Shown here: piece by piece, positions 15,636 through 31,904 of the stretch
How positions within the stretch are numbered: the stretch's first letter is position 1
Layout: each line of letters begins with the position of its first letter
DNA from: a virus
Virus record (IMG/VR): IMGVR_UViG_3300030012_000593
Location: 1 to 34,279 of that record
Strand: one strand, 5' to 3'
DNA length: 34,279 nt
Translations under genes and position numbers: made by a program
The notes under the pieces: generated by a model
Database searches by the model: none
Seen by the model: only the letters and a program-made list of their open reading frames with translations
What the model was told of the DNA's origin: nothing

Positions 15636-15669
15636 GGTTATCTCCATATACCTAAGCCCCGTTCCATGC

Positions 15670-15711
15670 TTAGGAATCATGCGTCCCCGAAGGGATGAAC
15701 GGACGTGGCAT
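15670..15711 (-). CDS. Micro-ORF, MPRPFIPSGTHDS
   Basis: A 13-codon frame whose ATG overlaps the stop of the 51-residue basic protein (TAATG) and whose end overlaps the ATG at 15680 of the next small frame. The only support is this stop/start linkage, which repeats the style of the rest of the genome. The Pro-rich peptide could be a leader rather than a protein with its own function. Confidence 0.25.
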   Translation of the reverse strand: MPRPFIPSGTHDS

Positions 15712-27525: not shown

Positions 27526-28100
27526 TAGAAATCATCGTCAGGTTCAACTGATGCTGGTGTTAAATCAGGAGTTACATTTGGTTCTGAAGCCTTAAAGCCA
27601 GAAGTTGTACCAAACAACTCAGCAGCTCCTGCCTCGTCTAAATCTCCTGTATCAACTCCAACCTCTGATTGTATGCTTACGATTTGTACACCAGATAATT
27701 TAAGTGAGGTGCCATATGTCTGACCATCCTTTAATATGTATGGCTTCTGTATAAATCCTAATTTAACCTTGCTGCCTGCAAAGAGTGGTGTGTTTTCGTC
27801 CTTGATTGGAGTTCCTTCTGTGTCTACAACAGGTGGTTTTTTATCATCTGACCAAGAAAACTTAATTGTATATTTACCTTTAGATACCTCTTCCCAAGGT
27901 GTAGGTTTTAGCAAAGCTCTCTTTGGGTTTTTTAATTTTGATTCAGCCCATTTAAGACAGTCTTCTCTTTCAGTCTCTAGCGCAGAGATTATGTCATCTC
28001 CTACAACTGCTTTTAATGTATAACCAAATTTACTTGGCTTTAACACAGCTTGAAAACCTTCAAGGGTCACAGGCTCTGCGGTGATATGTATGTTTCTCAT
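27525..28100 (-). CDS. 2.5: Single-stranded DNA-binding protein, gp2.5-like
   Basis: 191 residues, T7 gp2.5 is 232. The protein has an OB-like beta-rich middle (KVKLGFIQKPYILKDGQTYG, then TSLKLSGVQIVSI) and a highly acidic tail ending SVEPDDDF. The terminal Phe after acidic residues is the hallmark of gp2.5, used to contact the polymerase and helicase. It overlaps the RNA polymerase stop (TAATG). It protects ssDNA and promotes annealing during replication. Confidence 0.93.
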   Translation of the reverse strand: MRNIHITAEPVTLEGFQAVLKPSKFGYTLKAVVGDDIISALETEREDCLKWAESKLKNPKRALLKPTPWEEVSKGKYTIKFSWSDDKKPPVVDTEGTPIKDENTPLFAGSKVKLGFIQKPYILKDGQTYGTSLKLSGVQIVSIQSEVGVDTGDLDEAGAAELFGTTSGFKASEPNVTPDLTPASVEPDDDF

Positions 28101-30475
28101 TAACAGAAAAAATATGTTGAATCAATTACGGCTTCTGGTTTCAAGTCGCCAATAATCGGTGGGTCATTCTCTGCACCTATCGCTAGGGCAAAGTCGGTTA
28201 GTGGTTCATGGTCCGCGAACAGACGCATGTAAGTTTTTCGTACCAATGTGGACAAAATACACATGTCAGTAGCTCGACAGAGAACAGAATCGTGTATGGT
28301 CGCAATTGGTTTATTGAACTCGGTAACAGCAAAGTGAAGCAAACTTGCATCTAATGAATGAATTAAATTTGGTGCAGTAGCATTCTTATGATGCTTAAGG
28401 TCAACAACCTTTTTGCTACTACCAATAGATATTCTGCAGTTACCCATTAACTTTGTCTGAATTACAATTGGAGGTCCTTCACCTTTCATAAGTTTTTGGT
28501 TCACCTCAAACCCGCTAGGGGTTTTCCATTGTATTTTGTCAGCTCCGTTTTTAATAGTATTTCCTACTTCGCTCTCAATCCATCTCATAACTTGCATTGG
28601 ACCGGGAACTACAATTTCCATTGCTGATCTCACAGCTTTAACGCATTGTGTCAACTCGTCCTTGTCTGGCGTAATACCTTTCTCAATAAATGCTTCTCTA
28701 ATATAGGAACGGTTAGAGAATGGCTTAGCATTGTAAGGTATGGTCATAACGCACCTTTTAGTAGTCTTTCTATCCCAGAATGGGCGAAGCCTGTCAGGAA
28801 TACGATCCATACTCTTTTCAGCTATAAGCTTATAAGCATCTTGAGGTTTACTGGAACCAACTACATTAACCAGTTTTGCGGTACTGACGTCCTTGGCTAA
28901 TCCAGCTAAAATCTGCAAACCACTACAAGTTGCATCTGTTGCTACTGGTAGATAGGTTATATCACGATGTTCATGATGTAATTCGTAATACTCAACACAT
29001 GCAGCCATAAACTGCCAAGGTTCGTCAGCATTTTCCCAGTCAGCAATGTTACCAATAGGATCTGACCATACTCGGTGAACTAATTGCATATTCTCTGGAT
29101 TATCTATCCAAGCAATGCGCTCTTCCATTGTCGCCTTATCTAAACCATAGGTAGTAGCGAGCTGGAACTTAATCCATTCCATCCCCTTACTATTAATCTT
29201 TGCACCTTCTGCAAATAACAATAAACTTTTACCAAAGTCAGTGTCTTGTGGTGTCAAGAAAGCTGGTATTGGATATGCTCTACCACGATAGTCAAACGAA
29301 AATGGAATATAAAATTCTTTCTTTTCAAATTCACGTACAACATTCATTGTCATACGAGTCCTACAGGACTTACGCACTTCTGCTGCCTGTGCATTCATTA
29401 CTTTTGTTTTAGCTTTCTTCCAATCTTTTAAAGCTTGCTTATTTGTATCAGCATCTGCTGGCAAGTTTGGTATTGGATGATCTACTACAGGTTTAAATTT
29501 ACCTACCTCTATACCTCTCTCCTCCAACTCCTTAGCTACTTTAACTATGAATGGATTTAGCTTATATTTTACGGATTGTAAGGCGTTTATAAATTGGTAA
29601 GGTATTTCACCCTGTATTACTTGTTGATCGGTTCCCCGTATGAACTTATGACATTTTGTTAAGTCGTTGAGGTAATAACCACCGTCTTGAAGAGGGTTCC
29701 AATTACGGGGCTTGATAAACATAGGCTTAGCCAAAGGACTAAATGTTTCCGCGATGCTTGTGAGAGTTTCTTTGTGTTCAATTAATTTAGGGGTGGGGAT
29801 GAGTACTAATATTTCTTTCTTACCTTTAGGCATGTTGAACTTTTCAAACCAACCAGAAACTTCCATCAATACGTCAAGGCACCACGTTCCGACCTTGATT
29901 TTAATTGTTTTATTCCAACCTACCCATGGATTAATATCACATTTGTGCATGGTTGTTTGAATAGATTTACGTTTGTATTCTGTGCCCTTGGCTTCGTGCC
30001 AGTAGTTTCTTTTGAGGACAGTCAGCAAAGCTGGTGCCTCCTGCTCGTAGTATCGCATTTGCAGATCAGCTTCGATAGCTGACGCAACAGCGGTAGCAAT
30101 TGTATTTATTTGATGTTTATTTTTACGTGAGGAAAAAACATGGTCAAATACGACCTTGCCAGTCAATAAAGCTAAAAGCTCACTGCTCTCAGGGAAAATA
30201 TATTTTGAGAGAATGGCGTGGTTTTTTCCTGCATACTTCCTTGAATATTCTTTCTTCTTATTTATTGCGTCAATGAAGGAAGGCAAGATAGCACTGATTG
30301 ATGAGGAGCCATAAATTGTGGCACTAGCATACGTTTGATCTTCTAATTTCTGTGTAGTTAAACGTAACCTTTCTAGCCCTGCACTTATTTGTTTACGCTC
30401 GAATGCTTCCTGCTCTTCTATTACTCTAGAAGTTAGCATAGCTCGGTAGATTTTTTCGTGCACTTTCGTACACAT
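28100..30475 (-). CDS. 1: T7-type single-subunit RNA polymerase
   Basis: 791 residues from ATG 30475; a TTG two codons upstream (30481) is also open and no clear Shine-Dalgarno site decides. Numbering from the TTG, catalytic residues are Asp516 (TDATCSGLQ), Lys575 and Tyr583 (KRCVMTIPYNAK) and Asp731 (TIHDSV), matching T7 Asp537, Lys631, Tyr639 and Asp812. The FDYRGRAYPIPAF segment is also typical. It is about 90 residues shorter than T7 RNAP (883), mostly in the N-terminal promoter-binding domain. It transcribes the phage middle and late genes. A terminator lies just upstream of its start. Confidence 0.97.
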   Translation of the reverse strand: MCTKVHEKIYRAMLTSRVIEEQEAFERKQISAGLERLRLTTQKLEDQTYASATIYGSSSISAILPSFIDAINKKKEYSRKYAGKNHAILSKYIFPESSELLALLTGKVVFDHVFSSRKNKHQINTIATAVASAIEADLQMRYYEQEAPALLTVLKRNYWHEAKGTEYKRKSIQTTMHKCDINPWVGWNKTIKIKVGTWCLDVLMEVSGWFEKFNMPKGKKEILVLIPTPKLIEHKETLTSIAETFSPLAKPMFIKPRNWNPLQDGGYYLNDLTKCHKFIRGTDQQVIQGEIPYQFINALQSVKYKLNPFIVKVAKELEERGIEVGKFKPVVDHPIPNLPADADTNKQALKDWKKAKTKVMNAQAAEVRKSCRTRMTMNVVREFEKKEFYIPFSFDYRGRAYPIPAFLTPQDTDFGKSLLLFAEGAKINSKGMEWIKFQLATTYGLDKATMEERIAWIDNPENMQLVHRVWSDPIGNIADWENADEPWQFMAACVEYYELHHEHRDITYLPVATDATCSGLQILAGLAKDVSTAKLVNVVGSSKPQDAYKLIAEKSMDRIPDRLRPFWDRKTTKRCVMTIPYNAKPFSNRSYIREAFIEKGITPDKDELTQCVKAVRSAMEIVVPGPMQVMRWIESEVGNTIKNGADKIQWKTPSGFEVNQKLMKGEGPPIVIQTKLMGNCRISIGSSKKVVDLKHHKNATAPNLIHSLDASLLHFAVTEFNKPIATIHDSVLCRATDMCILSTLVRKTYMRLFADHEPLTDFALAIGAENDPPIIGDLKPEAVIDSTYFFC

Positions 30476-30489
30476 ATACAATAAAGAAA

Positions 30490-30513
30490 GGGACTAGCTT
30501 CTCAGCTAATCCC
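30490..30513 (-). terminator. Rho-independent terminator between attP and RNA polymerase gene
   Basis: On the minus strand a 10-bp stem GGGATTAGCT / AGCTAGTCCC (one G-T pair) with a GAGA loop is followed by TTTCTTTATT. It stands 27 bp after the tRNA-like attP core and 14 bp before the polymerase ATG. It would stop reads coming from the integrase side or from a tRNA promoter. Confidence 0.88.
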
Positions 30514-30540
30514 GTCCACTTAATACTTTAAACTCTGGAA

Positions 30541-30581
30541 GATTTTAAGTCCGGCGCGTCTACCAATTCCGCCACACTCCC
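30541..30581 (-). other. attP: Putative attP core: 5' half of tRNA-Leu(UAA)
   Basis: On the minus strand the 41 bases GGGAGTG...TTAAAATC read as a tRNA-Leu from the 5' end through the anticodon loop: acceptor strand GGGAGTG, the D arm GCGGAATTGGTAGACGC, and anticodon TAA inside CTTAAAA. Pairing stops after this, with no 3' half. T7-like cyanophage P-SSP7 is known to carry a 42-bp identity with host tRNA-Leu just after its integrase, and the layout here is the same. Recombination would restore a whole tRNA. Confidence 0.85.
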
Positions 30582-30600
30582 AAGGCGTTTGCGCAATTTA

Positions 30601-30629
30601 ATTGTAACAACGGACTTAAAATAAGACAA
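30601..30629 (-). promoter_or_regulatory. Sigma-70-like promoter in front of the tRNA-Leu attP half
   Basis: Minus strand TTGTCT (30629-30624), 17-bp spacer, TACAAT (30606-30601). The expected start point lies about a dozen bases before the tRNA 5' end at 30581, as for real tRNA genes. It reads through attP towards the terminator and RNA polymerase gene. Confidence 0.6.
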
Positions 30630-30676: not shown

Positions 30677-31552
30677 TTACGCAATAGCGAAGTCTATAGA
30701 GTTTACACGCTTAGCCAGTTCTTTATCAGCTGCATGTAAGTAGCGTTCAGTTACGCGGGTGGAGCTGTGACCCATATGGTCAGCAACGTCCTTGATATTT
30801 ACACCTGATTGAATCAGGAGTGTGCCATTTGTATGGCGTAGCCCATGGAATGTGTATGTTCCATCCGTGCGGTTGATGTGTCGTAAGCATTTGCGAAAAT
30901 GCCTGCGAAGCTGGTCAGCATTGAGCCAGTCATCACCAAAAATATAAGTCCTATCTTCGTTGCACCTTCGTACAAGCATAGGAATTAATTGGTCATGTAT
31001 CCCGCAAGTACGAGATTGTTGTCCACGACGTTTTGGTTTCATTACAGTGATGATTTTATTTGTAAGGTCAACTTTGTCCTTGGTTAACTGCAAGATTTTT
31101 TCCTGCCTTATACCTGTTAAAGCTGCAAATAAAATGATGTCAGCCAATGCATCATGCATTAGTGAGTCACGTGCAAATACAACCATTGACTTGAGTTCTT
31201 CTGCTGTAAAAGCATTTCGTTCAAGTGCGTCCTCGTCTTCACTAAATCTTTTAAATCTAGGGACTGTCCAGTCCTGAGATAAAAGACCGTATTCTTGTGA
31301 AAACTTTAGGACTTGCGATACTGCTGATATGTATCTATTTAGTGATCCATGCTTTAACCCTTGAGCTTTTAACTCATAACAATCGTCCAAAATCAGACGC
31401 ATTGTAATTTTATGAGGGTCAAATGTTAAAGGATGTAATTCACCAAACTTACCAGAATATAGAATTGCAGACTTACGACCTCCGCCAGTTACCCATGCTG
31501 GGTGGCGACGTAATGTGTAATCTCTGCATTGTTTCCAAGTGGATTTAACCAT
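30677..31552 (-). CDS. int: Tyrosine-recombinase integrase
   Basis: 291 residues. The C-terminal catalytic domain carries the full set: Arg149 (LTGIRQEK), Lys173 or nearby (MKPKRRG), His236-x-x-Arg239 (FHGLRHTNG), His262 (MGHSS) and the nucleophile Tyr271 (TERYLHAAD). The N-terminal SAM-like core-binding part covers residues 1-105. It would catalyse site-specific recombination at the tRNA-Leu site directly downstream. Its ATG overlaps the winged-helix gene by 8 bp, so both are probably made from one transcript. Integrases are common in these cyanophages although lysogeny has rarely been seen. Confidence 0.95.
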   Translation of the reverse strand: MVKSTWKQCRDYTLRRHPAWVTGGGRKSAILYSGKFGELHPLTFDPHKITMRLILDDCYELKAQGLKHGSLNRYISAVSQVLKFSQEYGLLSQDWTVPRFKRFSEDEDALERNAFTAEELKSMVVFARDSLMHDALADIILFAALTGIRQEKILQLTKDKVDLTNKIITVMKPKRRGQQSRTCGIHDQLIPMLVRRCNEDRTYIFGDDWLNADQLRRHFRKCLRHINRTDGTYTFHGLRHTNGTLLIQSGVNIKDVADHMGHSSTRVTERYLHAADKELAKRVNSIDFAIA

Positions 31553-31904
31553 AAAGAATGTCTCTGAGTTGTTTGACTAATAAGACTCCTTGAGGAGATA
31601 GCTTCATGACTTGCTTACGCATGTCAGATGGATCTCTGTATTTGATAATCCAATTTAAGCCGTTTTTACCGAGCCGATGCTTGTGAGAAAGCCAGTCAGT
31701 ATTCCTAGACGCACTTGCGCTTGGCATGTTTAAACCTATATCTTTGTCCTGTAACTGCAATTTAGTGCAGTCATCATGACTAGCAATATAAAGAAACACA
31801 CTAATCACCTGTGCTGGGATCTCTGGGTCGTAACTCCTGAATAGCTCCATTGCCTTCAGAAGTTTCTCCATCTGATGATCTGTTGTCTGGCGGAATACTT
31901 CCAT
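31545..31904 (-). CDS. Putative winged-helix (MarR-like) DNA-binding protein
   Basis: 119 residues from ATG 31904, preceded by TAAAGGCA. In-frame ATGs at 31871 and 31850 are also possible, and the last has GAAGGCA before it. The layout fits a MarR-type winged helix: helix MELFRSYDPEIPAQVISVFL, a helix-turn-helix around HDDCTKLQLQDKDIGLNMPS (Ser/Ala-rich recognition helix SASASRN), a charged wing (WIIKYRDPSDMRKQVMKLSP) and a final helix LSPQGVLLVKQLRDIL. Position upstream of int suggests it controls integrase or early genes. The assignment is by pattern only. Confidence 0.6.
   Translation of the reverse strand: MEVFRQTTDHQMEKLLKAMELFRSYDPEIPAQVISVFLYIASHDDCTKLQLQDKDIGLNMPSASASRNTDWLSHKHRLGKNGLNWIIKYRDPSDMRKQVMKLSPQGVLLVKQLRDILYG

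Follow-up and report, generated by a model that had tools for sequence, protein, structure and literature searches.

A probably insulated, promoter-bearing tRNA-Leu attachment site in T7-like cyanophages and its scars in Prochlorococcus genomes

The gap between the integrase and RNA polymerase genes of a T7-like cyanophage is best read as an insulated attachment site carrying its own promoter, in which a terminator would shield the genes behind attP in both the free and the integrated state (we put the probability of this reading at roughly 77%). The integrase would recombine the phage 5' half of tRNA-Leu(UAA) with the host gene, and the tRNA rebuilt at attR would be transcribed from a tRNA-type promoter borne by the phage. 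The phage promoter in the free state, or the host promoter after integration, would then point at the genes behind attP, and a single terminator behind the tRNA half would block transcription from either. The shielded gene would usually be that of the RNA polymerase; certain phages would have ssb and replication genes there. Natural attL and attR junctions and inherited scars support this reading at the sequence level. T7-like cyanophages integrate in the laboratory yet no lysogen has been found, and the scars bear on whether these phages were ever temperate.

Gene order of the integration module

The window, i.e. the whole stretch of DNA analyzed here, is the 34.3-kb linear virus record IMGVR_UViG_3300030012_000593 (34,279 nt), a T7-like cyanophage whose kin are P-GSP1, P-SSP2/3 and P-SSP7. 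Its minus strand carries, in this order, a regulator, an integrase, a promoter, a 41-bp 5' half of tRNA-Leu(UAA), an intrinsic terminator and a T7-like RNA polymerase. It thus holds the integration module of T7-like cyanophages (int, tRNA-Leu attP and T7-like RNA polymerase in a cyanopodovirus), and the order from promoter to polymerase is the one given in a preliminary description of this DNA. The small transcription regulator 5' of int (31545..31904, minus; phrog_9665, E 1.5e-39) matches in position the MarR-type gp0.7 of P-SSP7; a Pfam search with it gave no match above the cut-off. The tyrosine integrase (30677..31552, minus; PF00589, E 1e-22; PHROG integrase) has relatives at 16 IMG/VR loci, and about 95 bp separate its stop from the tRNA half. 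The polymerase (PF00940, E 6e-63) occupies 28100..30439 on the minus strand, its start being placed by comparison with relatives. While the earlier coordinates of promoter, tRNA half and terminator stand, the polymerase start at 30475 had to be abandoned: the corresponding frame hits TAA in relatives such as L002 and L005, in which ATCTACnGAGC is followed by the start ATG of the gene, equivalent to 30439 here.

Two small elements lie between terminator and polymerase. The polymerase leader contains an inverted repeat, GTGTAC-GAAA-GTGCAC (30458..30473, minus), conserved in relatives, and S-TIP37 has CTGTGC-N6-GCACAG at its place. The motif ATCTACCGAG, just 5' of the polymerase ATG (30442..30451, minus), is conserved in many Prochlorococcus attP phages. 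Both could be a regulator operator, an integrase arm site or a leader element. Integrase arm sites in the form of direct repeats (TCTAnCG) flanking the core are convincing in P-SSP7-type phages; the arm-site test was weak overall (mean longest match of 9.4, against 8.8 in shuffles), and such sites are retained as a lead. We also considered ATCTACCGAG as a repeated phage promoter, and found 3 near-matches in the window against 1 expected, which is unconvincing. Elsewhere on the minus strand, positions 15651-15704 match a Glutamine-II riboswitch aptamer, scoring 46.8 bits where the gathering score is 33.

The attachment site and its promoter

The attP core is the tRNA-Leu(UAA) 5' half, from the tRNA 5' end to the anticodon loop (30541..30581, minus). 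Its 41 bp occur once in the window and are identical at 115 Prochlorococcus tRNA-Leu(UAA) loci that run on into the host 3' half, the exact identity between phage and host spanning 41-46 bp at all 115 loci. The match to a host tRNA-Leu that the preliminary description had presumed is therefore real. ARAGORN found no complete tRNA in the window, at this site or elsewhere. When the window attP was joined in silico to a host locus, the same program recovered tRNA-Leu intact at attR but not at attL, and it also returned an intact tRNA-Leu(TAA) at natural attR junctions, so that integration would indeed rebuild the host tRNA, as had been proposed. The site combines what characterizes a tRNA-gene attP: an adjacent tyrosine integrase, a core identical to the host, and a tRNA rebuilt at one junction. 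In all phages compared, the identity between attP and host stops directly behind the anticodon loop. In the window this loop reads CTTAAAA (30543..30549, minus), and the identity ends just 3' of it. Since the anticodon-loop region is a common place of strand exchange for tyrosine recombinases (PMC8371274), this is probably where crossover occurs.

The phage brings the 5' half of the tRNA, and not the usual 3' half, and would therefore have to supply the promoter of the rebuilt gene. The putative sigma-70-like promoter (30601..30629, minus) consists of TTGTCT, 17 nt and TGTTACAAT (TTGTCT-17-TACAAT with an extended -10), and its position is conserved. Prochlorococcus-type attPs have TACAAT, TATAAT or a near variant 18-19 nt 5' of the tRNA start, and host tRNA-Leu loci have TTGGTT-18-TACGAT at equal distance from the tRNA; the promoters of Synechococcus attPs are weak by consensus. 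A promoter scan of the region as a single sequence gave no enrichment (13 found, 14 expected from shuffles) and was dropped as evidence, its count being no better than chance. The promoter call is supported because the position relative to the tRNA is kept, not because of the match to consensus. From this position the element is predicted to act as a promoter, and the fixed distance would be kept because the tRNA rebuilt at attR depends on the phage promoter.

A conserved hairpin behind the tRNA half

Behind the tRNA half lies a predicted intrinsic terminator (30490..30513, minus), a stem-loop of GGGATTAGCT-GAGA-AGCTAGTCCC with a 10-bp stem and a GAGA loop, followed by a U-tract (30480..30489, minus). 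The RNA fold of the region has a z of -2.9. We gathered attP loci from IMG/VR and from isolates, and compared 40 distinct phage attPs. A hairpin follows the cyanopodovirus attP in all 40, against 65 of 900 dinucleotide shuffles (7%). The caller recognized 39 of them, each with a tail rich in T, at 26-45 nt from the start of the region scanned behind the core; in the remaining one, L270, the stem is 6 bp long and is accompanied by TTTTTATT. Among phages that lack int, the caller was positive at 3 of 21 polymerase fronts, all three weak or poor-tailed (Fisher 1.8e-11, a value that overstates independence since the phages are related). The sequence 5' of the polymerase in these int-less phages is coding, where read, and their closest representatives (polymerase identity of 68-70%) have coding sequence at the place of the terminator.

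The stem was aligned over 17 distinct sequences, of which 16 come from phage loci and one from the attL in scar L247. Pairing is kept in 97% of the cells, both sides have changed at 6 of the 10 pairs, and the stem scores 0.579 for covariation (shuffles: 0.263 +/- 0.027). In 23 of the 170 cells the pair is G-U on this strand, hence A-C on the opposite one, and from this it follows that the structure belongs to an RNA running from integrase to polymerase. Stem sequences vary by clade, and the tRNA-Leu isoacceptors that they follow are of three kinds. In S-TIP37, S-CBP1, S-CBP2, S-CBP3, S-SRP01, SS120-1 and S-TIP28 the hairpins do not resemble in sequence those found in the Prochlorococcus clades, and they sit behind differing tRNA-Leu isoacceptors. 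With its GC-containing stem, U-rich tract and compensatory changes, the element has the features of an intrinsic terminator, and it is predicted to act as one. The strong terminator first noticed at 30513-30490 is well supported by the position conserved in 40/40 attPs and by the covarying stem.

Junctions and scars in Prochlorococcus genomes

Bacterial genomes were scanned with a pattern of the tRNA 5' half, and the search was then run across the genus, in 266 Prochlorococcus genomes. The pattern scan returned Prochlorococcus tRNA-Leu(UAA) loci including true attL and attR junctions, the two junction types that the preliminary description had proposed to look for. One attL lies on contig G041:C40 (L243). 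The host side has dnaA, a glutathione-reductase-like gene, an amidohydrolase gene and the host tRNA promoter; the phage side has, behind the tRNA half, the phage terminator, then an intact polymerase sharing 91% identity with its P-SSP7 counterpart, then ssb, and more phage DNA up to the contig end. The host tRNA promoter here faces the phage terminator, as had been predicted for the integrated state. Neither int nor attR of this prophage was found in what is a partial genome, which makes their absence uninformative. Malmstrom (2013) reportedly described a partial prophage from a single cell of Prochlorococcus.

Decayed scars with both ends were found in nine further genomes. The two ends lie 0.55-1.5 kb apart in L118, L198, L244, L245, L246, L247, L282, L283 and L284, and also in L096. 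Remnants of the polymerase N-terminus or of the integrase C-terminus persist in L118, L198, L247 and L282, as well as, by eye, in L284. Two other loci (L192, L193) have the attR end only, with integrase remnants. In L244 and L282 the insertion went into an older attR, hence the site was used repeatedly. The attL tRNA half is mutated in L198, L283 and L284, with promoter and tRNA intact at attR. Most scars come from single-cell or draft assemblies, but several genomes of independent origin give the same picture, as does a 620-kb contig (G012, L282). As these sequences read, insertions at tRNA-Leu, some of them in tandem, were passed on for long enough to decay.

The phage promoter expected ahead of the rebuilt tRNA is present at natural attR junctions. 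A phage-type promoter stands 5' of an intact tRNA-Leu(UAA) at 11 of the 115 loci and, counted by genome, in 15 of the 266. An intact tRNA junction was found in 204/266 genomes, nearly always one per genome, and ARAGORN returned an intact tRNA-Leu at every attR tested. Judging by these loci, some Prochlorococcus lineages now have a captured phage promoter ahead of the sole tRNA-Leu(UAA) found in them, an essential gene. Scars L096, L245 and L246 have a second promoter that is host-like. In this second host-type copy the promoter is preceded by a (TCTAG)CGCGTCCATT- or GCGAGTCTATC-like sequence, which resembles TCTAGCGTGTCCAC behind the int stop of P-SSP7-type phages. The widespread host-type promoter, too, may have been captured from a phage long ago.

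Several scars hold further sequence. In L118 and L284, from two genomes, TPR-repeat-like genes that resemble each other lie between what remains of polymerase and integrase, possibly phage cargo or a shared insertion. A similar outer-membrane-protein-like sequence (recognized by eye) occurs inside or beside the scars of L282, L192 and L206, which suggests that tRNA-Leu scars are places of gene gain. Distant T7-like polymerases (27-28% identity) were also seen at L235, L236 and L237 in two Prochlorococcus-genus genomes (G119, G083) and probably belong to other phages.

Insulation rather than a switch

The preliminary description had proposed a built-in lysogeny switch: integration would help silence the lytic polymerase by setting the host promoter against the phage terminator. 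On such a reading the prophage would be held dormant. Parts of this picture agree with our data, since the attL arrangement with an intact polymerase exists in nature, integration separates the polymerase from the phage early operon, and the scars reveal that some integrations were inherited. What speaks against it is that the terminator lies 5' of the polymerase already before integration, so that in free and integrated phage alike it separates a tRNA promoter from the polymerase. It also persists with no polymerase behind it: SS120-1 and S-TIP28 carry their polymerase upstream of int, a small gene and ssb follow attP, and the terminator is kept. Conversely, Syn5 and S-CBP42 have int, with no attP behind it and no terminator there. 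Being kept when the polymerase moves and missing without attP, the hairpin belongs to the attP module; on this comparison it is a component of that module and not a polymerase-specific switch. P-SSP7 and S-TIP37, which share the layout, integrate into tRNA-Leu as shown by PCR, from 2 h post infection and at low frequency, and deletion of int or attP abolishes integration in S-TIP37; they form no stable lysogens (zero among about 3e9 plated cells), and the group has no known classical repressor (PMC8776855). The only repressor candidate in the window is the regulator at the MarR position. A switch is thus unlikely. The part of the proposal that holds is that the host promoter is kept off the polymerase at attL; toggling between states does not. 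By gene order, integration removes read-through from the phage early operon onto the polymerase. With the gating of the polymerase set aside, the terminator may still shield lytic genes in general. As we read these layouts, it is insulation that would make integration tolerable.

It is quite unlikely that the hairpin just ends the regulator-integrase mRNA in lytic growth, limiting the polymerase to read-through, and that its adjacency to attP is incidental. LUZ100, which has the same gene order as the window, does have a strong terminator mapped directly behind int and before the polymerase, and a model of partial read-through and MarR regulation was proposed for it (PMC10134795). Against this reading, int without attP comes without terminator in Syn5 and S-CBP42, and the hairpin always lies past the tRNA half and in no case on its int side. 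That the stretch from promoter to terminator yields a short, ~100-nt RNA acting in infection, e.g. as a decoy tRNA half, is hardly credible: the two signals do enclose about 115 nt, but the stretch from tRNA half to terminator is unconserved beyond clades.

Beyond insulation, we hold as a tentative and rather doubtful extension that T7-like cyanophages have a repressor-free temperate state arising from attP geometry. Integration would part the polymerase from the early operon, the terminator would shield it from the tRNA promoter, and prophages of this kind would have been passed on stably and frequently enough to leave scars and, more than once, to replace the promoter of an essential Prochlorococcus tRNA. 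Since the promoter and the terminator can be mutated, they give a handle on the cost of integration in the available pairs P-SSP7/MED4 and S-TIP37/WH8109, and the signature of int, tRNA half and terminator offers a means to locate attP sites and their hosts in metagenomes.

Comparison with known systems

The attP itself is already known from P-SSP7 and S-TIP37, where int is likewise followed by a host-identical tRNA-Leu segment, and we read the same layout of promoter, half, terminator and polymerase from their sequences. The published account mentions neither promoter nor terminator, and the word "terminator" is absent from it (PMC8776855). We found no description of the promoter-attP-terminator layout in the open-access literature. 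The P-SSP7 regulator upstream of int activates expression of host rne (RNase E) (PMC9692554). What is new here are the scars, the captured promoters and the terminator rule.

A T7-like phage that bears int and has a terminator before its polymerase is also already known: LUZ100, which resembles the window in having regulator, integrase and terminator ahead of the polymerase, with low-level read-through proposed. It differs in that its tRNA-Leu gene is upstream of int and attP is unmentioned (PMC10134795), whereas the window-type terminator follows a partial-tRNA attP and stays when the polymerase moves. Between terminator and polymerase, where a LUZ100-type module would be expected to have a phage-specific promoter, the window shows the conserved hairpin and motif described above. 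Our analysis adds three things to what was known: the terminator is strictly tied to an attP made of a partial tRNA, a promoter is paired with it, and host genomes preserve a record of such insertions.

Archaeal elements of the pTN3 type likewise bring a tRNA 5' half and the promoter of the rebuilt tRNA, and such 5'-half sites with an element-borne promoter are said to be seldom met in bacteria (PMC8371274). The cyanophages differ in that a whole phage group is concerned, with an additional terminator and with promoter replacements fixed in hosts. In mycobacteriophages with tRNA-dependent lysogeny, too, integration into an essential tRNA gene must keep tRNA function, but they carry a complete spare tRNA gene (PMC10865867), whereas here the host gene would be rebuilt with a phage promoter and 5' half. 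Pelagiphages were considered as a parallel and set aside as a different design: HTVC019P lacks such a layout, and HTVC011P has, between int and polymerase, an apparently complete tRNA-Leu (L280, 5597-5740), behind which come a weak hairpin and its run of T.
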